A stretch of 21,861 nt of DNA from positions 1-21,861 of the IMG/VR virus record IMGVR_UViG_3300020448_000620; one strand, written 5' to 3'. The notes beneath the pieces were generated by a model. It did no database searches. It worked only from the letters and a program-made list of their open reading frames with translations, and was not told where the DNA came from. A program made the translations under genes and the position numbers. This DNA is from a virus. Shown here in pieces: positions 1 to 20,218 of this stretch; the stretch's first letter is position 1; each line of letters starts with the position of its first letter.

Positions 1-252
1 ATGGCAATTGGTATGGGATATTTTATCTGGTATGTTTGGAAGTATGTGACAAAAGAACTAAAACCAAAAATTAGTGCTTCACATAAGACTCTCATTAAAT
101 TATTAGACCAGATTAGAATGCTTGACAATGACTTGATACGATTACAACAAAAAGTAAATACTGTAATCGAATACAGGAAACAAGAAGAATTAAAAAAACA
201 AGGTAAAAAAGATGAAAATATTAATACTAGTCGCAAGTCTACTCGTAAGTAA
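1..252 (+). CDS. Small membrane-anchored coiled-coil protein, possibly holin-like (5' end may be cut)
   Basis: Not recognised with certainty. The 83 residues start with a short hydrophobic aromatic segment (about residues 3-15, rich in W, Y, F and I). A predicted coiled coil with regularly spaced Leu/Ile follows (about 30-58), then a highly basic tail. One membrane helix plus a charged coiled coil resembles small phage holins of the BhlA/UviB type, but this is a topology argument, not a sequence match. The ATG lies exactly on the first base of the window, so the true start could be upstream. The 3' end overlaps csgF by 41 nt, making it the first visible member of the curli-like operon. It could instead be an inner-membrane accessory of that system. 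Confidence 0.5.
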   Translation: MAIGMGYFIWYVWKYVTKELKPKISASHKTLIKLLDQIRMLDNDLIRLQQKVNTVIEYRKQEELKKQGKKDENINTSRKSTRK

Positions 253-679
253 TGTATTTGCTGACCAAATAGTCCATAAGTTTAAATCACCATCATTTAG
301 TGGTATCGGGACTAGTTCACATTACTTGACTATAGAAAACCAACAAAAGTCTCGTAGAGACAAAATTCAAGAAGATGTTGAATCTGCAATTGCAAAAGCA
401 GAACGTGAATCAGAAAGTACAACCCATGCTAAATTTCTTAGAAACTTAGAATCAAGAATTTATGCTCAAATATCAAAACAATTAGTTGACCAAATGTTTG
501 GTGATGGAATAAATGAAGGTGAGATATCAGGTTTCTTTGATATGCTTGGTAATACAGTTGCATATGATTTATGCACTGGTTGTGGTGAAGATGGTATTGA
601 TGTAATTAGAATCACTATAACAGGTGATGACGGAACAATAACAACGTTAGATGTACCAGTAGGTAGTGGAGCATTTTAA
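212..679 (+). CDS. csgF: CsgF-like curli assembly protein
   Basis: In bacteria CsgF is exported, inserts its N-terminus into the outer-membrane CsgG pore and helps anchor curli fibres. Here a Sec signal peptide (residues 1-17, ending VFA) is followed by the family hallmark at the mature N-terminus, F-K-S-P-S-F-S-G (E. coli has F-R-N-P-N-F-G-G), the part that enters the CsgG channel. A helical region and a C-terminal beta region ending in V-G-S-G-A-F match the family layout. At 155 aa it is slightly longer than E. coli CsgF (about 138). A C-x-x-C pair near residue 117 is unusual. AAGG sits 8 nt before the ATG at 212. The stop TAA shares its last base with the csgG start, so the two are translationally coupled. 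Confidence 0.88.
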   Translation: MKILILVASLLVSNVFADQIVHKFKSPSFSGIGTSSHYLTIENQQKSRRDKIQEDVESAIAKAERESESTTHAKFLRNLESRIYAQISKQLVDQMFGDGINEGEISGFFDMLGNTVAYDLCTGCGEDGIDVIRITITGDDGTITTLDVPVGSGAF

Positions 680-1551
680 TGAAAATATTTTTATTGGTAG
701 GACTATTAGTTCTATCAAGTTGTGCTAGTATACCTTCTTATTCTCGTATAGATTGCGATGATGACCAACTAGCATGTAGAGAAAGTGCAACTGTTGAAAG
801 GTTGCCATCTACATATGAATTAAAAAATGTACCGGGTCCAGATAATAACAAACCTGTAGTAGTTGCAGTTTATGGTTTTACAGATAAAACAGGGCAAAGA
901 AAAAGTAGAGATACATTTTCAGATTTTTCTACCGCGGTAACACAAGGTGCAGATTTACTTGTTATTGATGCACTTAAAACTGCAGGTAATGGAGAGTGGT
1001 TTAGAGTAGTTGAAAGAACTAATATAGATGCTCTCATAAGAGAAAGACAAATAATAAGAAGTTCTAGAGAAGAGTTTAATGAAGACAAAGCACTAGGTTC
1101 TTTAGTATTTGCAGGAATTTTAATTGATGGTGGTGTTGTTGGATATGACACTAACATCGAAAGTGGTGGTCGTGGAGCAAGATACTTAGGTGTCGGACAC
1201 AATACATCATATAGAAGAGATTCAGTAATTGTTAGTCTAAGGGCAACCTCAACACTAACAGGTGAAATTTTAATGAATGTTCAGGCGAAAAAAACTATTT
1301 TGTCTGTCGGTGGTGGTTATGATTTATTCCGATTCTTTGATATGGACACAAAGTTATTGGAATTTGAAGACGGTAATGGATTTAACGAGAGTGTGACTTT
1401 TGCAGTTCGCTCCGCTATTGAAGTTGCAGTATTAGAACTTATTTACCAAGGCCACGATAGGGGTTATTGGCAAATAAAGAGTGGTCATCGTCACCCACAT
1501 CTATCAGATGGAGTTAACGATAAACACTCATTAATTAAGGAGAAAGAATGA
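679..1551 (+). CDS. csgG: CsgG-like outer-membrane curli secretion channel lipoprotein
   Basis: CsgG forms the nonameric outer-membrane pore that exports curli subunits (type VIII secretion). The 290-aa protein has a lipoprotein signal with lipobox L-S-S-C (Cys15). The family core is clear: F-S-T-A-V-x-Q-x-A at 83-91, a V-E-R-x-N-I-x-A-L-I-R-E-R-Q-I-I-R block near 111-127, and S-G-G-x-G-A-R-Y near 162-169. Length is close to E. coli CsgG (277 aa). The Phe of the E. coli constriction (Phe56) aligns with F83, while the neighbouring constriction Asn appears replaced by Asp82; this alignment was done by eye. The stop overlaps the next ATG (ATGA). Presence beside csgF supports a complete pore-plus-cap unit. 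No csgE is visible. Confidence 0.93.
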   Translation: MKIFLLVGLLVLSSCASIPSYSRIDCDDDQLACRESATVERLPSTYELKNVPGPDNNKPVVVAVYGFTDKTGQRKSRDTFSDFSTAVTQGADLLVIDALKTAGNGEWFRVVERTNIDALIRERQIIRSSREEFNEDKALGSLVFAGILIDGGVVGYDTNIESGGRGARYLGVGHNTSYRRDSVIVSLRATSTLTGEILMNVQAKKTILSVGGGYDLFRFFDMDTKLLEFEDGNGFNESVTFAVRSAIEVAVLELIYQGHDRGYWQIKSGHRHPHLSDGVNDKHSLIKEKE

Positions 1552-2465
1552 GAACTTTAATTCTCGCTTTATTATTAACAGTAAGTGCATTTGCATTTGC
1601 AGATAATGAGATATATATCGAGCAAGTTGGAGAAGGTGTAGAAATTATTATTGAACAAACAGGTAATGGAAACTTGATTGGACAAAATACTAACACTGGT
1701 GCTAATGCGACCGATATGAAACTACAAATAGGTAACAGTAATGCATACTGGTTATTTAATGGCAGTAATAACTTATTATTTGGTGATATCAATTCAGATG
1801 GGTCAAACATAGATTACAATCTAGTAGGTTCAAATAACAGAATTAATCAATTGATTGGTACTGTAGATGGTAATACTAGTAGCAACTATAGTGCAGATGC
1901 TATTGATATGAATGTAGATGTTCAAGGTAGTTACAACCAAACTGCATTTAGATTGGGTAATAAATCTGAAACTTATAACACACCTTATAATTTAGGTGAT
2001 GGTGCATTTTTTAACAATAGTGCAGGTTTTAGAACTTACTCTGCTCATACATTTACTGGCAGTAATATCACTGGTTATGGAACTTATGGTGGTAATGCTA
2101 CAAGTAATTATGGGTCAAATGCCGCATATTGGGACGCCTGGAATATCACAGAAGGTAGTGCTGATGGTGCCAACATTGACTTACTAGTTGATGGTAGTGG
2201 TGCTTCAAATACTATTGGTGCTTTTATAAACTCTTCAAATGCTATTTGGGATTGGGACATAACTGGTTCAAACAACTGGATATTAACAACTCAAGAGGAT
2301 GGAAGTGATAATAAAATATCTGTTGATTTAACAGGTGATAAAAACTATGTGTTTGTTGGTCAAAGAACAGGTACAGGTTTAAATAGTACAGAGGCGATAT
2401 TAGATGCAAGTTTTGTTACAGACGGTTCAGAAATTACGATTATTCAACAAGATACTGGCGAGTAA
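1548..2465 (+). CDS. Curlin-like (CsgA/CsgB-type) secreted repeat protein, paralogue 1
   Basis: Probable substrate of the adjacent CsgG pore. A signal peptide (1-18, ending FAFA) is followed by a mature region that starts D-N-E-I-Y-I-E-Q-x-G-E-G. The body is rich in Asn, Gly, Ser and Thr, with imperfect beta-strand/turn units carrying G-S-N-N, G-N-x-N or Q-x-G-x-x-N turns at roughly 20-30 residue spacing (near 38-42, 61-65, 71-75, 93-97, 126-130, 240-243). This is typical of curlin repeats but more degenerate than E. coli CsgA. It is 305 aa, about twice CsgA length, and lacks cysteine. It ends in a short I-T-I-I-Q-Q strand. The ATG overlaps the csgG stop. A nucleator (CsgB-like) or non-amyloid adhesin role is equally possible. 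Confidence 0.75.
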   Translation: MRTLILALLLTVSAFAFADNEIYIEQVGEGVEIIIEQTGNGNLIGQNTNTGANATDMKLQIGNSNAYWLFNGSNNLLFGDINSDGSNIDYNLVGSNNRINQLIGTVDGNTSSNYSADAIDMNVDVQGSYNQTAFRLGNKSETYNTPYNLGDGAFFNNSAGFRTYSAHTFTGSNITGYGTYGGNATSNYGSNAAYWDAWNITEGSADGANIDLLVDGSGASNTIGAFINSSNAIWDWDITGSNNWILTTQEDGSDNKISVDLTGDKNYVFVGQRTGTGLNSTEAILDASFVTDGSEITIIQQDTGE

Positions 2466-3555
2466 TCTAATACTAATAGGGTCTGTTTATGCAGACTCTA
2501 TTGGTGATATTCGTGAACACACTGGTAGTGCCGCACTTGAAAGACAATCTGGTGAAGAACTAATTGTTTCAGATGCGAGTTTACCTGATGTAGAAATGAA
2601 TGATACTGCCGTTACTGGTAATGGTAGAATGTTAATTGAATTCAAAGATGAAGAAGAATTAGCATTAACTGAACATACAAGAATTTACATTGACGAAGTA
2701 TATTATGACCCAGACCCATCGTTATCTAAGATGACAATGCGAATGGCAATGGGTACTGCTAGATTTACTTCTGGCACAGGTGCAAGAATTGATAAAGCAA
2801 ATATCGATATCTCTACACCTACTGCTCAGATAGGTATTCGTGGTACAGATTTTACGACCACTGTTGATGAACTTGGCAGAACGTTAGTTGTATTATTGCC
2901 TGATGAAAATGGAAATTCATCTGGTGAAATAATTATTACAAATGCTGGTGGGACAATTACATTGAATGAGGCATATCAATCCATGATGTTACAATCATAT
3001 GATGTTATGCCACAAAGAACAGTTATTCTTGAAGGTATTACTCCTGATTCAATTAATAATATGTTTATTGTCAATCCACCAAAAGAAATAAAAGAAGTAG
3101 AAGCAGAAAGAGAAAGTAAAGAAGATGATGCTCAAGGTATTTTAGATGTCGATTTTTTGGCATATGATGCCTTAGAAGAAGATGCTTTAGAAGATAAAGG
3201 AGAATTAGAATATACTGAACTAGATATTGATTTACTAGATGTTGAGTTTCTTCAAGACTTATTAGACATTACTGCAGAACTTGACAGAATAAATGAGATT
3301 GATAGAGAAGTCGCAGATATAGGTAATGTTAACATTGAAGGCACTCAAGTAGGGTTTGATGATGATAGTCAGTATAGTACGTTTGTTAATAAAGAAGAAG
3401 AAACAATTGTTATGACTAGAGAAGTAGAAGGTATTATTAGAATAACTCATGCAATTTATACTAATGCAGTTATTGAAACATATACTAACCAAAAACCAAG
3501 CGAGATAACTTTAGGAGATGGTTCAGATACAAGAATCATAATAACACAAGAATGA
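2404..3555 (+). CDS. Secreted FecR-domain protein with acidic middle region
   Basis: FecR domains are periplasmic or cell-surface modules, often found beside sensors. An N-terminal signal (about 1-30, basic start then hydrophobic stretch ending VYA) leads into a FecR-type beta domain at about 60-155, with the hallmark S-T-P-T-A-Q-I-G-I-R-G-T-D-F (137-150). A strongly acidic stretch (about 226-300) follows, then a beta-rich C-terminus ending I-I-I-T-Q-E. The gene starts inside the upstream curlin gene (62-nt overlap); CAGAGG at 2389-2394 sits 9 nt before the ATG at 2404 and supports this start. Its stop overlaps the next ATG. Proteins of this kind often neighbour CHASE2 cyclases, as here (from memory). 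Ligand and partner are unknown. Confidence 0.8.
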   Translation: MQVLLQTVQKLRLFNKILASNLILIGSVYADSIGDIREHTGSAALERQSGEELIVSDASLPDVEMNDTAVTGNGRMLIEFKDEEELALTEHTRIYIDEVYYDPDPSLSKMTMRMAMGTARFTSGTGARIDKANIDISTPTAQIGIRGTDFTTTVDELGRTLVVLLPDENGNSSGEIIITNAGGTITLNEAYQSMMLQSYDVMPQRTVILEGITPDSINNMFIVNPPKEIKEVEAERESKEDDAQGILDVDFLAYDALEEDALEDKGELEYTELDIDLLDVEFLQDLLDITAELDRINEIDREVADIGNVNIEGTQVGFDDDSQYSTFVNKEEETIVMTREVEGIIRITHAIYTNAVIETYTNQKPSEITLGDGSDTRIIITQE

Positions 3556-4397
3556 TTAAATATTACATACAACGTATCAAAGAAGAAATATCGCCACAAG
3601 GACTTAAAACTATTATAACAATGTGGATTTTATTTTCGATTGGTATTGCAAGTTGTGAATATGCATATGCTGATAATGAAATATATATTACTCAAAGTGG
3701 TGAAGGTACAAAGTTGTTTATCGAACAAGAAGGTAAAGACAACAAAGTAGACTTTTCAATGCAACACCAAGGCAACGAAGTAAAAATAATCCAGCATGGA
3801 CATAATAATAAAGTAAGTTATGGGCATTGGGGTAGTTTAAGTAGTGGTGATATAGACGGTACATTTAATAATTTAGACTTTGCACAAATATGTGGTCGTG
3901 GTTCACTTTGTAAAGAATCTCACATAGGTCTTCACATTTATGGTGACGATAACAATGTTCGTTGGGGTCAAGGATATATTTTAAGTTCTTTAAATGATAC
4001 AACTTTTGCATGGGACGGAAGTGAAGGTGGTGGTCATGATGTAACTATTGATATTCATGGAGATAATAATAATCTTGCAGGTAGTCAAAGAAATTCATCT
4101 GCAGGTATCTATAGTGAACATCAAGCAACATTTTATCTTTACTCTGATAATAATAATGTATTCTGGAGACAAAATACTGATGGTGTAAAAACTGTAAATT
4201 TATACACATACAATGATGGAAACAATGTTACAGGATATCAAAGTGGTTATGCAACACATACTGCAAATATATCTTTAACTGGTTCTAGTCCAACAACATT
4301 AAATTTAAGTCAACAAGGCAATTCTGCTCAGTCTTATTCACTATCACAAAACTGCCAAACTATGGGTGGTTGTAGCATTTCTGTTGCACAACAATAA
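3552..4397 (+). CDS. Curlin-like secreted repeat protein, paralogue 2
   Basis: Second curlin-like protein (281 aa). A long N-region precedes a hydrophobic signal segment (about 21-40, ending YAYA). The mature start D-N-E-I-Y-I-T-Q-S-G-E-G closely matches paralogue 1, then the bodies diverge. Turns such as G-D-D-N-N, G-D-N-N-N, S-D-N-N-N and Q-Q-G-N-S recur between strands. The C-terminus (about 240-281) is the most curlin-like part, ending S-I-S-V-A-Q-Q. Unlike paralogue 1 it has two C-x5-C pairs (C114/C120 and C268/C274), possible disulfides in the oxidising envelope. The ATG at 3552 overlaps the preceding stop (ATGA). An internal ATG at 3621 would give a shorter signal peptide without a basic N-region, so 3552 is preferred. 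Confidence 0.75.
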   Translation: MIKYYIQRIKEEISPQGLKTIITMWILFSIGIASCEYAYADNEIYITQSGEGTKLFIEQEGKDNKVDFSMQHQGNEVKIIQHGHNNKVSYGHWGSLSSGDIDGTFNNLDFAQICGRGSLCKESHIGLHIYGDDNNVRWGQGYILSSLNDTTFAWDGSEGGGHDVTIDIHGDNNNLAGSQRNSSAGIYSEHQATFYLYSDNNNVFWRQNTDGVKTVNLYTYNDGNNVTGYQSGYATHTANISLTGSSPTTLNLSQQGNSAQSYSLSQNCQTMGGCSISVAQQ

Positions 4398-4402
4398 AGA
4401 CG

Positions 4403-6229
4403 ATGTACAATTGGAAAGTTGTTCTCATAACAATACTGTTATTAGTTGGTGTTCGTGTTGCTGACCCTAAATTAGTAGAACAGTTTCGTTTAAACTATTT
4501 TGATTCACTACAATATCTACAAACACCTGTAGACTCTGGTATTGTTCTAGTTGATATCGATGAAAAGTCTCTAGAAAAGTTTGGACAGTTTCCTTTTCCA
4601 CGTGAAGTCTATGCAAAAGAATTAAGCAAAAGTGGTCCTCTATCTTTGTACGTAATGAACATGAGTTTCACAGAAACAGACAGATTTGGTAGCGATGAAG
4701 ATTTAGCAAACACGATGATACATAGAGAAGTTATATTATCTTCTATTCCTACAAACGTATCTAATAAAGGCGACAAACCTTTTCTTGGTTTTGGTAAACT
4801 AGGTAAAGGTGACCCTAGTGACTGGTTGTACACTTATAAAGGTATTTCTACACCCATAAAAGAATTAAATCCTGTTGGTGTCGGTGTTGTAAGTGCGGCA
4901 CCAAGTGTTGATGGTATAGTTCGTGAAGCGCCATTAATGGTAATTGCAAATGGTCATATTTATCCTTCTCTCGCACTAGAAACTTTACGTGTTTGGAATC
5001 GTCAACCTAATTATGCAATGAAAGTAAAAGAAGCAGGTGTTGAATGGGTAAGAATGGGTAAACTAGATAAGATGTCCACTACACCTAACTCTAATATACA
5101 AATTGCATATTGGAATAATTTTAAACGTATCTCTTTTGGTGAACCAATGCCAGATGGACAAATGTATATCATTGGTTTATCTGCTGGTGGACTAGTAAAT
5201 CCAATACCAACGCCAATGGGTGCAATGTACCCACATGATGTTCAAGCAAACTTAATTCAAACTGTTGTAAGTGGTGTACAAATACAAAGACATTTCTTTC
5301 TTGAACAATTAGAGATACTTGTTTTGACAATGAGTATGTTATTGATACTACTTATGGTATATAGATTGCCTACGTATTTAAGTGGCATATTATCTCTTGC
5401 TATGATTGGTGGTATAATCGCAACAGGACTATATTATTGGTATACTGCTCTATTGCTTATTGATGTAGTGTACACGTCATTGGCATCGCTTCTAGTGTTC
5501 GGACATGCATCATTTAACAAGTATTACGTTACATACAAACTTAAAGAAATGATAAAAGGTCAGTTCAAAACGTATCTATCGCCAGACATGGTAGATAAAC
5601 TTGCAGAAGACCCAAGTCTATTAAAACTTGGTGGTGAGAAAAAGAACATGACATTCTTTTTTATGGACATAGTTGGGTTTACACCAATATCAGAACATTA
5701 CAAAAACAATGATGACCCCGAAGGTCTAGTGGAATTAGTTAATAACTTTTTAGATAGAACGTCTAATATCATACTACGTAATGGAGGTACAATTGATAAA
5801 TACATGGGTGATTGTATAATGGCGTTTTGGAATGCACCATTAGACAATACGTATCATGCAGAAATGGCATGTATTTCTGCAGTAGAAATAGAACAAGAAC
5901 TAGAGATAATACAAGATGAATTTAAAAGAAAAAATCTTCCTAGCATCAATGTCGGCATTGGTATTAATACTGGTGACTGCATCGTTGGCAACATGGGTTC
6001 TGTTTCCCGATTTGATTATTCAGTCATCGGAGATGCAGTTAATCTCGCCGCTCGTTTGGAAGCACTAGCGGCCAGAGGCAAATATAAAAACAATAGAATA
6101 CTTATCAGTTTAGATACTGTAAACTCTATTCGTCAATATGGATATAGTCGTAAAGATTTTTTATTTAAAAAATTAGATACAATTAAAGTAAAAGGTAAAG
6201 AAGAAAAAATAGAAATATATTCACCATGA
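4403..6229 (+). CDS. CHASE2-domain class III adenylate cyclase
   Basis: Predicted inner-membrane receptor that makes cAMP from ATP. One N-terminal membrane helix (about 5-20), an extracytoplasmic CHASE2 domain (about 30-290, with V-D-I-D-E-K-S-L near 50-57), three membrane helices (about 302-370), then a class III cyclase domain (about 412-600). Catalytic residues are intact: metal aspartates D422 (M-D-I-V-G-F-T) and D470 (Y-M-G-D), adenine-selecting K466 and D538, and transition-state N547 and R551 in N-L-A-A-R-L-E. The Lys/Asp pair argues for adenylate rather than guanylate cyclase. At 608 aa it is full length. The start lies 5 nt after the curlin stop and the end overlaps the next gene (ATGA), so it belongs to the operon. 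It is likely governed by the envelope signal sensed by CHASE2, perhaps through the FecR protein (inference). Confidence 0.93.
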   Translation: MYNWKVVLITILLLVGVRVADPKLVEQFRLNYFDSLQYLQTPVDSGIVLVDIDEKSLEKFGQFPFPREVYAKELSKSGPLSLYVMNMSFTETDRFGSDEDLANTMIHREVILSSIPTNVSNKGDKPFLGFGKLGKGDPSDWLYTYKGISTPIKELNPVGVGVVSAAPSVDGIVREAPLMVIANGHIYPSLALETLRVWNRQPNYAMKVKEAGVEWVRMGKLDKMSTTPNSNIQIAYWNNFKRISFGEPMPDGQMYIIGLSAGGLVNPIPTPMGAMYPHDVQANLIQTVVSGVQIQRHFFLEQLEILVLTMSMLLILLMVYRLPTYLSGILSLAMIGGIIATGLYYWYTALLLIDVVYTSLASLLVFGHASFNKYYVTYKLKEMIKGQFKTYLSPDMVDKLAEDPSLLKLGGEKKNMTFFFMDIVGFTPISEHYKNNDDPEGLVELVNNFLDRTSNIILRNGGTIDKYMGDCIMAFWNAPLDNTYHAEMACISAVEIEQELEIIQDEFKRKNLPSINVGIGINTGDCIVGNMGSVSRFDYSVIGDAVNLAARLEALAARGKYKNNRILISLDTVNSIRQYGYSRKDFLFKKLDTIKVKGKEEKIEIYSP

Positions 6230-6435
6230 AAGATTTTTTAAATTCAGTTCGTATGCCATATCAAGATGCGATTGTATTTGCGACTAGACTATATGATTTT
6301 CATATTGAACAGTCTATGAAAGATTTAAAAAATAAAGACTTTCATATAAAACAAGCACATAGAATGAAAGATTGGATAACTGATATGAAAGAGTTTATCG
6401 TTTCAAATGAGTCTTGTCATGAACGTGAAGCATAA
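6226..6435 (+). CDS. Small hypothetical protein, last gene of the curli-like operon
   Basis: Not recognised. The 69 residues are helical and charged, rich in Lys, Asp, Met and His, with no signal peptide or membrane segment, so probably cytoplasmic. The ATG overlaps the cyclase stop (ATGA), the same coupling used throughout the operon, which supports it being real. Its last 41 nt overlap the end of the convergent gene on the other strand. Confidence 0.55.
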   Translation: MKDFLNSVRMPYQDAIVFATRLYDFHIEQSMKDLKNKDFHIKQAHRMKDWITDMKEFIVSNESCHEREA

Positions 6436-6679
6436 TCAAGGCATAGTGGATAACTTTTAATAAGTCTTGTCTATTATACCCATTTTTATTTCCATATCGT
6501 TGTGCATATTTCATAATATTACCGATACAAAAACCTTCACCATGACCACCATCAATGATAAATTCAGTTGCTTGAAACTTGTTTTTAGAATAATGTTGCT
6601 CGTAAGTCGAGTTAACATATTTTAATAATTCAAGAATATTATCATTCTCATTATATTTGTATTTTATTTTTTTTGCCAT
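6395..6679 (-). CDS. DUF3310-like small phage protein
   Basis: The 94-aa protein has a central motif F-C-I-G-N-I-M-K-Y-x-x-R-Y-G (about 50-63) followed by an L-L-K-V-I-H-Y-A helix. This resembles the G-N-x-x-K-Y-x-x-R-x-G ... D-L-x-K-A signature of DUF3310, a family common in phages and of unsettled function (sometimes annotated as nucleotide-kinase-associated). No membrane segment. It is preceded by a perfect consensus promoter whose -10 ends only 8 nt before the ATG, with AGGA in between, so the mRNA may be nearly leaderless. It is the last gene of the minus-strand block and overlaps the convergent plus-strand gene at its 3' end. Confidence 0.7.
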   Translation of the reverse strand: MAKKIKYKYNENDNILELLKYVNSTYEQHYSKNKFQATEFIIDGGHGEGFCIGNIMKYAQRYGNKNGYNRQDLLKVIHYALIMLHVHDKTHLKR

Positions 6680-6687
6680 TGTCCTAT

Positions 6688-6716
6688 ATTATACACTAGT
6701 TGTCATTAGTTGTCAA
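6688..6716 (-). promoter_or_regulatory. Perfect consensus sigma70 promoter for the DUF3310-like gene
   Basis: On the minus strand TTGACA (6716-6711) is followed by a 17-nt spacer and TATAAT (6693-6688), exact consensus at both boxes. The -35 lies in the last codons of the upstream gene. Only 8 nt separate the -10 from the ATG at 6679. Confidence 0.85.
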
Positions 6717-7328
6717 GTCTTCAATTACTTCATTTAAATAATCTATGTTAGTAAACTTTACTGCCATTGTAAACCTATCACACGAAGTATATGCAGAATG
6801 CCAACAATGATTTTCTGGGTCATTCTCTTTACCAAAATGAAACCAACGACATTGCCAACCTTTCTTATCTGGTATAGTGACTATTTCATTTGTTTTATTA
6901 TCTAAATAATTAAAATACCCATCACCTTTTAAACTGTATGTAAATAACATTTGATAGGCAGATGCATTCCAATTTGTATGCCAACCTATAAATCCACCTG
7001 GTGGATAATAATTTAATAAAGCATTATGTTTTGCACCAATTTCTGGTGGAAATTCGTATTTATAATATTCATAAAATTTTTTCCAACCACTTGGGTTTTT
7101 TTCTAATGCATGACTTATAGAAGTACTATAAAATGCATCGGGGTATCCGTCATGACTTCTTGACATAATATCATTTAAGTATTCTCTAGAACAATAATAT
7201 TCACCATTATCTAAATCGCCTCTAATTCTATTATAATCCATATTGTCGTAATCTAAAGAATAAAAATCATCTATTAGATTATCTAACATGTTAGTATAAT
7301 AAGAATTATTAATTACTATTTCTGCCAT
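6696..7328 (-). CDS. Putative 2OG-Fe(II) oxygenase-fold protein with HxN variant
   Basis: The 210-aa cytoplasmic protein has a C-terminal half laid out like a double-stranded beta-helix dioxygenase: Y-Y-P-P-G-G-F-I-G-W-H-T-N-W (H117, N119), then a distal H177 and an R185 placed like the 2-oxoglutarate-binding Arg in C-D-R-F-T-M-A-V-K-F. The usual H-x-D/E iron ligand pair reads H-x-N here, so activity or metal binding may differ from canonical members. The N-terminal third is Asp/Tyr rich and unrecognised. Overlaps the upstream gene by 20 nt, so they are co-transcribed. The substrate cannot be told from sequence; a peptidyl or small-molecule hydroxylase is possible. Confidence 0.6.
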   Translation of the reverse strand: MAEIVINNSYYTNMLDNLIDDFYSLDYDNMDYNRIRGDLDNGEYYCSREYLNDIMSRSHDGYPDAFYSTSISHALEKNPSGWKKFYEYYKYEFPPEIGAKHNALLNYYPPGGFIGWHTNWNASAYQMLFTYSLKGDGYFNYLDNKTNEIVTIPDKKGWQCRWFHFGKENDPENHCWHSAYTSCDRFTMAVKFTNIDYLNEVIEDLTTNDN

Positions 7329-11514: not shown

Positions 11515-12369
11515 TTATTTATCCTCAAAATTTATGTTGTTAGATTTCTCTCGTTCATCGAGTTCATACTCTTCTCGCATTTTGTTGTTTATTTTAACAG
11601 ACTCGGCAATCAAAGTCAAGTCTTCATCAAACTTAGTAAATGCATTCATGTCTTTTGGTAAACATGCACCACCAAACCCACGTTTGCCATCATACCCAGG
11701 GACTCTAGAATGAGCAAAACCTATTCTACCATCACTACAGATACCATTAATTATTCTTTGAGCATTCAAACTCTGTTTTTTTGCACTATCATGTATTTGA
11801 TTCATGAATGTAACTTTCAAACCAAGAAAACTGTTGACTCCATATTTTACCATTGCCGCTTCTTGTGGTGTCATACTAATCCAAGAAAGATTAATACATA
11901 AACTAAATGTACTATAAAAAGTTATAATTCTTTGGCAAGATTCTTCTGTTGGACCACCAATAATTCTCATTCTAGAATTTATAAATTGTTCTTTTGCATT
12001 ATTTTCTGTTAAAAATTCTGGATTGTGTGTAATTCTAGGTTTATCGTCATCGTGTACTGAATTATATAATCTAGTTAGAATATCTGGCGTTACTGTTGAT
12101 TTGATAACAATAAGTGCATCTGTATGTTGGATAAGTTTTAATACTGCATCTTCAACGATGGCACCATCAACTGTTCCATTATCAGACATTGGTGTTGGCG
12201 CACATACAAACACACATGTTGGATTCCATTTACATAAATCGTCTATGTTTGTTTCTAGTTTTGGGTCTACATAAAACTTTTCTAAGTCATCATTAGTAAA
12301 TGCATAATCAATTGCTTGACCTACAAATCCATAACCGACAATTCCTAATTTAAATTTACTTTTTGCCAT
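11515..12369 (-). CDS. UDP-glucose/nucleotide-sugar 6-dehydrogenase-like protein, short form
   Basis: The family oxidises UDP-glucose (or GDP-mannose) to the uronic acid with two NAD+. The Rossmann loop G-x-G-x-x-G is at 12-17, N-P-E-F-L at 116-120, the catalytic Lys/Asn in V-K-Y-G-V-N (K175, N179), and the catalytic Cys in G-F-G-G-A-C-L-P-K-D (C236). All key residues of the first two domains are present. The protein stops at 284 aa, whereas typical members are about 390-450 aa, so the C-terminal sugar-nucleotide-binding Rossmann domain is missing. Its end abuts uvsX cleanly, so this is not an obvious frameshift. It sits one base from the epimerase gene, implying successive pathway steps. Confidence 0.85.
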   Translation of the reverse strand: MAKSKFKLGIVGYGFVGQAIDYAFTNDDLEKFYVDPKLETNIDDLCKWNPTCVFVCAPTPMSDNGTVDGAIVEDAVLKLIQHTDALIVIKSTVTPDILTRLYNSVHDDDKPRITHNPEFLTENNAKEQFINSRMRIIGGPTEESCQRIITFYSTFSLCINLSWISMTPQEAAMVKYGVNSFLGLKVTFMNQIHDSAKKQSLNAQRIINGICSDGRIGFAHSRVPGYDGKRGFGGACLPKDMNAFTKFDEDLTLIAESVKINNKMREEYELDEREKSNNINFEDK

Positions 12370-13337
12370 TAATTAACCTCATGATAATCTTTATACCAAC
12401 TTACAAATTCTGCTACACCTTCTTCAATGTCAACTACAGGTTGATATCCAATCTTTTCAATCTTAGATGTATTACTCCAAGTTTCAAGTACGTCTGCGGG
12501 ATGTGGTGGTGTTTTTATAATATCTGGTTCTCTATTTAATTCAATTCCTATTCTATTTATAAAATGTATTAGGTCGACTTGTTTGCCTCTACCGATATTA
12601 AAGATTTCATCTGAACGTATGTCTTGATTAAAAATACATAATTTAATACCAGCAATAATATCAGATATATACGTAAAGTCTCTTTTCATTAGACCCCAAT
12701 TAAATGCCCTAACAGGATTACCAGCAACAATATCTTTTGTCATATCGTACAATGCCATGTCGGGTCTACCCCATGGTCCATATACTGTAAAAAATCTTAG
12801 ACCTATATTATGTAGACCAGACATTTTAAACTGACACTCATTTACATACTTAGTGTATGCATATGGATTCTTTTGATGTGGTTGAACTATTTCTTCTGTC
12901 CATGGTAATGTTTTTGTGCCACTATAGACAGATGATGTTGATGCATAAATTACTTTGGTGACGTTATGTAACTTACATACGTTAATTAAATTTTGTGTGC
13001 CATCTATGTTATCTCTATGATATAAGTGTTCATTACCAACACTTTGGCGAACTCCAGCACGTGCCGCCAAATGCACAACAATATCAGGTTCATAATCCGC
13101 AAAAAGATAATCTAGTTTTTCAAAATCATTTAAATCACAATTTCTTATTTCTAATCCAAACTCTTCGCATCTATCTTGTTTTAATTGTGGGTCATAGTAA
13201 TTATTAAAGTTATCAATACCAACACAATATAAATCATATTCTTCTGTTAACAAAGAATGCATTAAATGACTACCAATAAACCCTGCGCCACCCGTAACTA
13301 ATATTTTCACAACTTTAGTTTCTGTTTCTGTAGACAT
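12369..13337 (-). CDS. NAD-dependent epimerase, probably UDP-glucuronate 4-epimerase
   Basis: Extended-SDR sugar-nucleotide epimerase, 322 aa. T-G-G-A-G-F-I-G (15-22) binds NAD; S135 and Y159-x-x-x-K163 are catalytic. The segment G-L-R-F-F-T-V-Y-G-P-W-G-R-P-D-M-A (179-195) and A-A-R-A-G-V-R-Q-S (91-99) are diagnostic of the CapI/GAE type that converts UDP-glucuronate to UDP-galacturonate. With the adjacent dehydrogenase this gives a two-step route from UDP-glucose, presumably to change cell-surface or phage-coupled glycans. The start overlaps the primase-like gene by 23 nt; a GTG at 13307, just before K-I-L-V-T-G-G, would also fit the family's usual N-terminus. Confidence 0.88.
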   Translation of the reverse strand: MSTETETKVVKILVTGGAGFIGSHLMHSLLTEEYDLYCVGIDNFNNYYDPQLKQDRCEEFGLEIRNCDLNDFEKLDYLFADYEPDIVVHLAARAGVRQSVGNEHLYHRDNIDGTQNLINVCKLHNVTKVIYASTSSVYSGTKTLPWTEEIVQPHQKNPYAYTKYVNECQFKMSGLHNIGLRFFTVYGPWGRPDMALYDMTKDIVAGNPVRAFNWGLMKRDFTYISDIIAGIKLCIFNQDIRSDEIFNIGRGKQVDLIHFINRIGIELNREPDIIKTPPHPADVLETWSNTSKIEKIGYQPVVDIEEGVAEFVSWYKDYHEVN

Positions 13338-17786: not shown

Positions 17787-18197
17787 TTATTTAATTTTAA
17801 TAGTTTTAGGTTTTTTCTCTTCGGGTATATTTTTTATCAATTCAATTGATAATATACCATCATCAAGTTCAGCAGATTTTACTTCGACAAACTCTGCAAG
17901 TGCAAAAGTTTTTACAAAGTCTTTTGTTGAAATACCTTTGTGTATTATTTCAGCAAATTTATCTTCTGACTTAGCGATAACAGATATCTTAAGTGAAGAA
18001 TCTTCTACTTCGATGTTGATATCCTTCTTTTGAAAACCTGCGACTGCAAGTTCAACAAAATAACTTTCGCCTTTCTTGACGATGTTATATGGAGGATAGT
18101 TTGATTGAGGAACCGATACTCTTTGTAAAGTATCAAAGATAGAATCGAATCCCACCGAGAATGGTCTGAATTGACCAAATGCTTCTATTTGTGTCAT
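17787..18197 (-). CDS. hsp20: Small heat-shock protein (Hsp20/alpha-crystallin)
   Basis: ATP-independent holdase chaperone of the IbpA type, 136 aa, a common accessory gene of marine T4-like phages. N-terminal R-P-F-S-V-G-F-D-S-I-F-D (11-22), an alpha-crystallin domain at about 34-121 with V-E-L-A-V-A-G-F (48-55) and the signature A-E-L-D-D-G-I-L-S-I-E-L (109-120), and a C-terminal I-K-I anchor used for oligomer assembly. AGGAG lies about 6 nt before the ATG. It is a single-gene transcript bounded by a strong terminator. It probably protects phage or host proteins during infection. Confidence 0.93.
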   Translation of the reverse strand: MTQIEAFGQFRPFSVGFDSIFDTLQRVSVPQSNYPPYNIVKKGESYFVELAVAGFQKKDINIEVEDSSLKISVIAKSEDKFAEIIHKGISTKDFVKTFALAEFVEVKSAELDDGILSIELIKNIPEEKKPKTIKIK

Positions 18198-18306: not shown

Positions 18307-18525
18307 ATGCCAGCAAAGTTTAAACCTACAGAAAAAATTGTTGATAGAGCAACTAAAAAAGTGACTGTAAAACATTATTATCTTAAACAAGTGCCTCAAA
18401 ATGAATTGTTTTCAGCACTTAACAATGATTCTACACCAAATAAAAAGAAACAAAAGATTCGTAATGAATTGGTTCGTAGAGGTGTAAAAATAGTTTATGC
18501 TTCAAAAGAAGCAGGTATCTGTTAA
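18307..18525 (+). CDS. Small basic hypothetical protein on the opposite strand
   Basis: The 72-aa very basic protein has N-terminal M-P-A-K-F-K-P-T-E-K and K-H-Y-Y-L-K segments and a helical R-N-E-L-V-R-R-G-V-K end. Similar short Lys/Arg-rich proteins beginning with a K-F-K-P/E type motif occur in marine T4-like phages (from memory), but function is unknown. It is the only plus-strand gene inside the replication block, and its stop overlaps the stop of the convergent cupin-like gene by 4 nt. The ribosome-binding site is poor (A-rich, no clear GGAG). Confidence 0.6.
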   Translation: MPAKFKPTEKIVDRATKKVTVKHYYLKQVPQNELFSALNNDSTPNKKKQKIRNELVRRGVKIVYASKEAGIC

Positions 18526-19007
18526 CCTTCAATCCCAAAAGAATAAGTTACACGAGATTGTAATGGAGTTATTTCGTGGTCAGTACCTCGGGGTATATAA
18601 ACGACATCGCCTACATTCATAACTTTATTTATTTCTCCTACTGTTAACTTAATACGACCTTTTACTTGTAATAATAAAACGTCCATTTTATCTCTGTGTA
18701 ATGGAAAACTTTTATGTTTACCAAAACCTATAAATGCAATATTTGTAATTATTTTATCTGGACAAATATCTTCTAATAAAGAGATAATTTGTTTTACAAT
18801 AGGTTTAACTGATTCTCTTAGATGTAATTTTTGTAACTCAGTCCTATTTTTATGAGATTCTACTTTGATATATTCTTTAGGGTGACTATCAATCATATTA
18901 ACGATTGTAGTCCAGTTTTGATGGATTAATTTGGGTTCAATACTTGTTTCGAAAACACGATTATTTTGTATTGCCGATGTTATATTTTGGACAAAGTTCC
19001 CATTCAT
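18522..19007 (-). CDS. Cupin/JmjC-like Fe(II)-dependent oxygenase-fold protein
   Basis: The 161-aa protein has a C-terminal jelly roll that reads F-P-L-H-R-D-K-M-D (H104, D106), L-K-L-T-V-G-type strands, G-D-V-V-Y-I-P-R-G-T-D-H-E-I (133-146, H144) and a final V-T-Y-S-F-G. The H-x-D...H set fits the metal triad of cupin or JmjC-type hydroxylases. The N-terminal half is unrecognised and helical. Substrate unknown. Its start overlaps the end of regA by 47 nt, an unusually long overlap, and its stop overlaps the convergent gene. It may instead be a non-catalytic cupin. Confidence 0.6.
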   Translation of the reverse strand: MNGNFVQNITSAIQNNRVFETSIEPKLIHQNWTTIVNMIDSHPKEYIKVESHKNRTELQKLHLRESVKPIVKQIISLLEDICPDKIITNIAFIGFGKHKSFPLHRDKMDVLLLQVKGRIKLTVGEINKVMNVGDVVYIPRGTDHEITPLQSRVTYSFGIEG

Positions 19008-19744: not shown

Positions 19745-20218
19745 TTAAAAGTCCATCGCTATACATATTCTACCATCTAGTGAAGGTTCAACACCATGTA
19801 TTAAATTAGCATTAAACATTACAAATAAATTTTCTTTAGGTTCTATTGTAATACCTTCATCTGGAAAAATTAAATTACCTGATTCATCACCAACTTGTAA
19901 ATAGTATATTGCACTCATTTTAACATCATCTTTTTCATGATGATGAAACATACAACCTTCACCGTTTGTGTATTCAATACTCCACATTTCTGAAATTTTC
20001 ATCTTAGCATGTTTTTCAATTTCTTTTGTCATTATAGTCCAAGAAAGCGGTATTTCTTTATTAGATTTATTCCACTCATACGTTGGTTGCCATATTTTAC
20101 CACCAAGTAATCTACTAATATTTGCGCCTGTTCTTGACTGGTCACGATGGGCATTTTCTTGAATTTGTTCTATAATCAAGTCTTTGTTTCTTATTTCAAG
20201 TTTACTTAAACTCAACAT
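19745..20218 (-). CDS. 2OG-Fe(II) oxygenase-like protein inserted between genes 44 and 62
   Basis: The 157-aa protein has a double-stranded beta-helix pattern: F-H-H-H-E (H92-H94), S-A-I-Y-Y-L-Q-V-G (102-110), S-G-N-L-I-F-P-D, then L-F-V-M-F-N-A-N-L-I-H-G-V (131-143, H141) and G-R-I-C-I-A-M-D-F (R150 as the probable 2-oxoglutarate contact). This fits the small phage 2OG oxygenases common in marine T4-likes. Substrate unknown. Its start overlaps the gp44 end by 17 nt and gp62 follows 6 nt after its stop, so it is embedded in the clamp-loader operon, which T4 lacks. Confidence 0.8.
   Translation of the reverse strand: MLSLSKLEIRNKDLIIEQIQENAHRDQSRTGANISRLLGGKIWQPTYEWNKSNKEIPLSWTIMTKEIEKHAKMKISEMWSIEYTNGEGCMFHHHEKDDVKMSAIYYLQVGDESGNLIFPDEGITIEPKENLFVMFNANLIHGVEPSLDGRICIAMDF

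Follow-up and report, generated by a model that had tools for sequence, protein, structure and literature searches.

Operon layout and its occurrence in phages

The window analyzed here is a 21.9-kb fragment from IMG/VR (record IMGVR_UViG_3300020448_000620, positions 1–21,861) which belongs to a marine T4-like phage. Its open reading frames (ORFs) and Pfam matches define a six-gene curli set, csgF-csgG-curlin-1-FecR-curlin-2-CHASE2 cyclase, all on the plus strand, and we focus on the relationship between the FecR-domain protein and the CHASE2 cyclase.

The former half of the operon (212–2465) contains csgF (212–679; PF10614, E = 7.4e-10), which encodes a curli export accessory protein and has the same position in phages HTVC008M and Melnitz, csgG (679–1551; PF03783, E = 4.9e-46), which encodes the outer-membrane curli export pore, and curlin-1 (1548–2465). 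The latter half consists of the genes for a FecR-domain protein of 383 amino acids (2404–3555; PF04773, E = 3.7e-9, further supported by an AlphaFold2 model and fold matches), for curlin-2 (3552–4397, 281 amino acids), and for a CHASE2 class III adenylate cyclase of 608 amino acids (4403–6229; PF05226, E = 1.1e-28; PF00211, E = 3.3e-20). The FecR gene, which has a Shine-Dalgarno-like GAGG 9 nucleotides (nt) upstream of its ATG, overlaps curlin-1 by 62 nt and curlin-2 by 4 nt, and a gap of 5 nt separates curlin-2 from the cyclase gene. The ORF coordinates and Pfam matches thereby bear out the original prediction, made from the sequence of this stretch, of a FecR gene, a curlin-like gene, and a CHASE2 cyclase gene joined by overlaps or 5-nt gaps. 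The same prediction delimited a module at 2404–6229; the genes are correct but the start is too late, as csgF, csgG, and curlin-1 belong to the same operon from position 212 on.

Both curlins are predicted to be exported curlin-repeat proteins. The PF07012 matches are below the family cut-off in both: curlin-1 (C-terminus ITIIQQDTGE) was assigned by a weak match together with strand and C-terminal motifs, and curlin-2 (C-terminus CSISVAQQ) by a match with E = 0.01 together with repeat and tail motifs, yet the latter has clear QxGxxN strands. Such strands occur 1.7 times per curlin (n = 155) versus 0.03 in shuffled sequences. The CsgG and CsgF families, by which a curli (type VIII secretion) pore is recognized, are both present. 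On the other hand, no CsgE gate or CsgD regulator family was detected in a Pfam scan of the eight operon proteins; both are missing from pelagiphage curli operons as well (PMC9599517).

Three scans of viral contigs, using FecR, cyclase, and CsgG queries, yielded 229 partly overlapping loci; as the best 80 hits of each scan were taken, this sample is weighted to near relatives. The order csgF-csgG-curlin-FecR-curlin-cyclase was observed in 132 of the 229 loci, and nearly all remaining loci contain a partial stretch of it. Among loci fetched with CsgG, FecR follows csgG in all 46 that extend far enough (3.5 kb), and the cyclase does so in 29 of the 32 that extend 8 kb. A fourth viral scan, centered on HTVC008M, revealed the same gene order, and the order in HTVC008M and Melnitz is identical to that of the window operon. 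A chance neighborhood of these genes is ruled out by the fixed order in relatives. Within the phage collection, the cyclase matched only HTVC008M, Melnitz, and one contig labeled Acinetobacter phage, the annotated genes of which appear to be chromosomal. In bases 1–50000 of MW574966, examined for a podophage version with a histidine kinase, no curli genes are annotated.

This operon has been described in pelagimyophages as CsgG/CsgF plus hypothetical genes (PMC7029224), and a lysis-related pore has been suggested (PMC9004378). In 2022, curlins, FecR, and adenylate cyclase were identified in pelagiphages, the latter two being called putatively regulatory (PMC9599517). The type VIII secretion system/curli module of those reports (PMC9599517; HTVC008M, Melnitz) shares its six genes and their order with the window, but CHASE2, the matching of FecR with CHASE2, the curlin-type end of FecR, and the adhesin-anchor match are not named there; CHASE2 receives no mention in the searched portions of PMC7029224, PMC9599517, and PMC9004378. 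The six-gene set is already known, and it is the evidence for a matched evolution of FecR and the CHASE2 half and for a curlin-like FecR end that appears to be new.

Domain structure of the FecR protein and the cyclase

The AlphaFold2 model of FecR (mean predicted local distance difference test score [pLDDT] of 80, and >90 in the folded parts) consists of a signal peptide (residues ~1–31), the FecR domain (31–210), an acidic, low-confidence linker (210–310), and a C-terminal beta domain (311–383). The FecR domain matches the fold of PupR (6ovk, Z = 15.6) and that of 5ix9 (Z = 9.6 over 74 residues). Entry 5ix9, titled "Cell surface anchoring domain; Antifreeze protein," is also the sole confident PDB match by sequence for the phage FecR profile (E = 3.7e-5), in a region covering the first ~100 residues. 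We take this entry to be the domain that anchors the RTX adhesin of Marinomonas primoryensis in the outer membrane.

The membrane-anchoring domain of that adhesin has been called a conserved anchor (PMC13090378). In the RTX-adhesin retention module with LapD/LapG (5ix9; PMC13090378), as proposed for the phage proteins, a periplasmic fiber or adhesin domain is linked to a second-messenger membrane protein, and the likeness of the retention module to phage FecR is detectable in both sequence and fold. The phage protein differs in having neither a type I secretion system (T1SS) adhesin nor a LapG-type site: a Pfam scan of FecR revealed no RTX family or T1SS tail, and reading its 383 amino acids by eye revealed no AAG that could form the [T/A/P]AAG site. 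The direction of signaling would also differ, being outside-in via the cyclase in the phage, whereas LapD/LapG signals inside-out via cyclic di-GMP.

The PupR match raises another explanation, namely that FecR is a TonB-pathway iron sensor of the FecR/PupR type, as the product name in an earlier annotation suggests. These cell-surface signaling regulators (6ovk) share the FecR domain fold with the phage protein but have a transmembrane anti-sigma part; in the AlphaFold2 model of phage FecR, the domain comes directly after a signal-like helix, with no N-terminal cytoplasmic anti-sigma part or transmembrane helix. Considering also that the top sequence match is an adhesin anchor, we regard an iron sensor as very improbable.

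The C-terminus of FecR is a curlin-type strand, IIITQE. A hydrophobic-x-hydrophobic-x-Q end was found in all 78 FecR proteins and in 74 of 77 curlin-2 proteins of the phage operons, and curlin-1 has a similar strand motif a few residues before its end (e.g., INQKDS). The same end occurs in 0/78 CsgF, 0/78 CsgG, and 1/78 cyclase proteins, in 18/1053 other ORFs, and in 1 of 32 bacterial FecR neighbors; in a second operon set, 53 of 54 FecR proteins have it. Because the 78 FecR proteins are related, the tail motif reflects conservation and not 78 independent events. In the window, the motif lies at 3538–3555 in FecR, 2432–2462 in curlin-1, and 4371–4394 in curlin-2. No confident fold match was obtained for the C-terminal domain (311–383), which was not searched alone. 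The suggestion in the original prediction that FecR monitors fiber assembly or export gains support insofar as the curlin-type strand and the match to the RTX-adhesin anchoring domain connect FecR with fibers or export.

The cyclase (AlphaFold2, pLDDT 89) is composed of a first transmembrane helix (4–20), the periplasmic CHASE2 domain (21–297), three further transmembrane helices (300–388), and the cyclase domain (412–607); a PDB sequence search matched the catalytic part only. The window enzyme has the metal, substrate, and transition-state residues D422, D470, K466, N547, and R551, with Ser at the second substrate position. Among 130 distinct relatives, D422 is present in 129, K466 and D470 in 130 each, N547 in 126, R551 in 128, and Ser540 in 125. 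This pattern is consistent with an active adenylate cyclase, and it is in these intact catalytic residues that the support for cyclic AMP (cAMP) as the output, also part of the original prediction, lies. The protein has a mosaic structure, in that identity between the window and HTVC008M amounts to 31.5% in the CHASE2 half and 63.7% in the cyclase half, versus 51.9% and 36.5%, respectively, between HTVC008M and Melnitz. The linker before the cyclase domain and the domain itself are highly conserved. Two loci (L002, 8935–10986; L060, 11892–13919) have, behind the same kind of CHASE2, a cyclase subtype with Asp at the substrate position and Ser in place of the transition-state Asn, which may act on a different substrate.

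Relationship between FecR and CHASE2

To compare the operon proteins, we calculated distance correlations for 78 non-redundant operons using Mantel-type tests without correction for relatedness. The correlation between FecR and CHASE2 was 0.71 after CsgG and CsgF were removed, and that between FecR and the cyclase domain was −0.11 once CHASE2 was also removed. The FecR–CHASE2 signal is uniform over the length of FecR, and curlin-1, the next gene upstream, lacks it.

We then analyzed tree congruence in one CsgG clade of 51 operons which contains four CHASE2 types. The FecR tree requires three changes of CHASE2 type, the least possible (mean with shuffled labels, 21.9). The N-terminal part of FecR also requires three, as does the FecR domain alone, and the C-terminal part six, versus eight for CsgG, eight for the cyclase domain, nine for curlin-1, 12 for CsgF, and 15 for curlin-2; a 681-column tree of CsgF, CsgG, and curlin-1 still requires eight. 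For the approximately unbiased (AU) tests, we used a quick FecR tree in which CHASE2 types 1 and 2 each form a clade (support of 91 and 94, respectively); a single clade of type 6 was not rejected for FecR. In contrast to this, a type 6 clade was rejected for CsgG (P = 0.024; type 2 was not, P = 0.36, and type 1 was borderline, P = 0.085) and for the cyclase domain (P = 0.0003), and one-clade types 1 and 6 were both rejected for curlin-2. FecR residues 125–130 (2776–2793, plus strand), a loop, best separate the CHASE2 types according to column mutual information in the 51 operons and represent a candidate contact site. Together, these sequence comparisons favor the view that FecR and the sensor half of CHASE2 cyclases evolve as a matched pair, and the tree congruence supports, at this level, the coupling of the two that had been predicted.

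FecR and CHASE2 genes are also paired in bacteria. Among the 80 nearest bacterial CHASE2 cyclases (29–38% identity, mostly Alphaproteobacteria), 31 have a FecR gene beside them, often 4–154 nt upstream. No csgG, csgF, or curlin gene was found in the fetched flanks of the 80 cyclases, and none of these loci contains a natural FecR-CHASE2 fusion. In 26 bacterial genomes, picked for carrying a CHASE2 cyclase of this kind, a FecR gene is located at most 8 kb away from 26 of the 51 CHASE2 genes, against an expected 0.7, and same-strand FecR is upstream of CHASE2 in 21 of 21 cases, confirming that the two are recurrent bacterial neighbors, as had been proposed. FecR has also been reported beside a CHASE2 kinase in Burkholderia (PMC5192318). 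The BiofilmReg operon described there likewise encodes a periplasmic FecR-domain protein (FecR-LysM) directly before a CHASE2 sensor, but it signals through a histidine kinase and a response regulator and has no curli genes. Independent occurrence, which would speak against a module, was not seen in the sampled phages, whereas the bacterial FecR–CHASE2 pair stands without curli and is therefore probably an older unit than the link to curli.

Several bacterial FecR partners are large RTX/cadherin adhesins, e.g., those at L250 (5335–9885), L264 (6027–9707), and L240 (11494–14574), whose N-terminal part is Pfam FecR. Because the phage FecR profile matches the RTX anchoring domain 5ix9, it may be that retention modules of adhesins are among the proteins assigned to FecR by Pfam.

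The explanation that we favor, by a modest margin of confidence, is that FecR couples curli export or fiber display to CHASE2, which sets cAMP. As known for these families, CsgG and CsgF build the pore in the outer membrane, with the two curlins as its fiber substrates. FecR would be exported to the periplasm, where its C-terminal domain, carrying the curlin-type end strand, may associate with curlins or the pore, whereas its N-terminal FecR/adhesin-anchor domain may face the periplasmic CHASE2 and modulate the class III cyclase that is fused to the latter. Fiber export or display would then be reported as cAMP inside the infected cell. Most simply, phages would have combined curli with an older bacterial FecR–CHASE2 pair, whose FecR frequently belongs to a surface adhesin, and the phage FecR would have been fitted to curlins through its end strand.

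Several observations weigh against this explanation. FecR and cyclase are sometimes missing from curli regions (PMC9599517). In the full set, FecR also strongly tracks CsgG/CsgF (raw r = 0.9). At a finer scale, within two subgroups, CHASE2 is tracked by curlin-1 too (partial r of ~0.6), and curlin-2, being repetitive, gives noisy trees. Melnitz and L060 carry the other cyclase subtype, with Ser for the transition-state Asn547. The cyclic nucleotide-binding domain PF00027 is absent from the whole HTVC008M and Melnitz genomes, so that any cAMP reader would be host-encoded or of another kind. A class-wide search for this domain as a host cAMP receptor, in which SAR11 was not distinguished, showed that many small genomes lack it; this result was given no weight. 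In addition, FecR and CHASE2 are near neighbors, and one recombination tract could therefore carry both.

The last point leads to a partial rival to coupling, in which FecR and the CHASE2 half are matched merely via joint homologous recombination, without direct signaling, the breakpoints being located 5' of FecR and in the linker before the cyclase. Crossovers would be favored by the conserved linker and cyclase domain, and the identities given above (0.315 and 0.637 for window–HTVC008M; 0.519 and 0.365 for HTVC008M–Melnitz) indicate that the cyclase domain has been exchanged. However, the intervening curlin-2 needs 15 changes versus three and rejects the CHASE2 grouping, the CHASE2-distal half of FecR tracks CHASE2 better than the nearer half, and the pair recurs in bacteria without curli. 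We therefore consider recombination by itself rather unlikely.

It is less likely still that the operon is simply a fiber or pore device (for sibling capture, as a superinfection barrier, or as a nutrient or CsgG lysis pore) with an independent cyclase which, for example, sets host cAMP for phage metabolism. Such roles have been proposed (PMC7029224; PMC9004378; PMC9599517), and the absence of a phage cAMP receptor noted above would agree with an independent enzyme, but this would not account for the retention of a FecR-matched sensor domain alongside a changing cyclase domain, or for FecR having a curlin-type end.

The signal recognized by CHASE2 domains has been stated to be unknown (PMC5192318). 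Should FecR prove to be the CHASE2 partner, a small reporter system in laboratory Escherichia coli could be used to test both this signal and the purpose of phage curli; the virus would then be one that brings along an outside-in sensor for a structure that it builds on the host surface. More tentatively, and with clearly less confidence than in the coupling itself, a periplasmic FecR/adhesin-anchor domain read by CHASE2 might be a general, unrecognized way in which Gram-negative bacteria sense their own surface fibers and adhesins, with exchangeable outputs (cyclase or histidine kinase). Marine phages might have taken this pair and fitted it to curli via the curlin-type FecR end, possibly threaded through CsgG.

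Other features of the window

A small ORF of 69 amino acids (6226–6435, plus strand, from the ORF list) overlaps the cyclase stop by 4 nt; Pfam scans gave no convincing family match for it. The frequency of the T4-like late promoter motif TATAAATA is not above chance, and sigma-70-like sites in positions 1–6800 number 39 versus 36.1 in shuffled sequences. A perfect sigma-70 consensus (TTGACA-17-TATAAT) is present on the minus strand at 6688–6716, just 5' of a leftward DUF3310 gene (6395–6679).

The remainder of the window is a T4-like phage replication region on the opposite strand, which includes DNA polymerase, a DnaB-like helicase, and UvsX. Next to uvsX, a UDP-glucose/GDP-mannose dehydrogenase-like gene adjoins an NAD-dependent epimerase (11515–13337, minus strand), both being nucleotide-sugar genes. 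An Hsp20-type small heat-shock protein (17787–18197, minus strand) adjoins the DNA polymerase, and a cupin/JmjC-like protein and a 2OG-Fe(II) oxygenase (18522–19007 and 19745–20218, minus strand) lie toward the sliding-clamp-loader end of this region.

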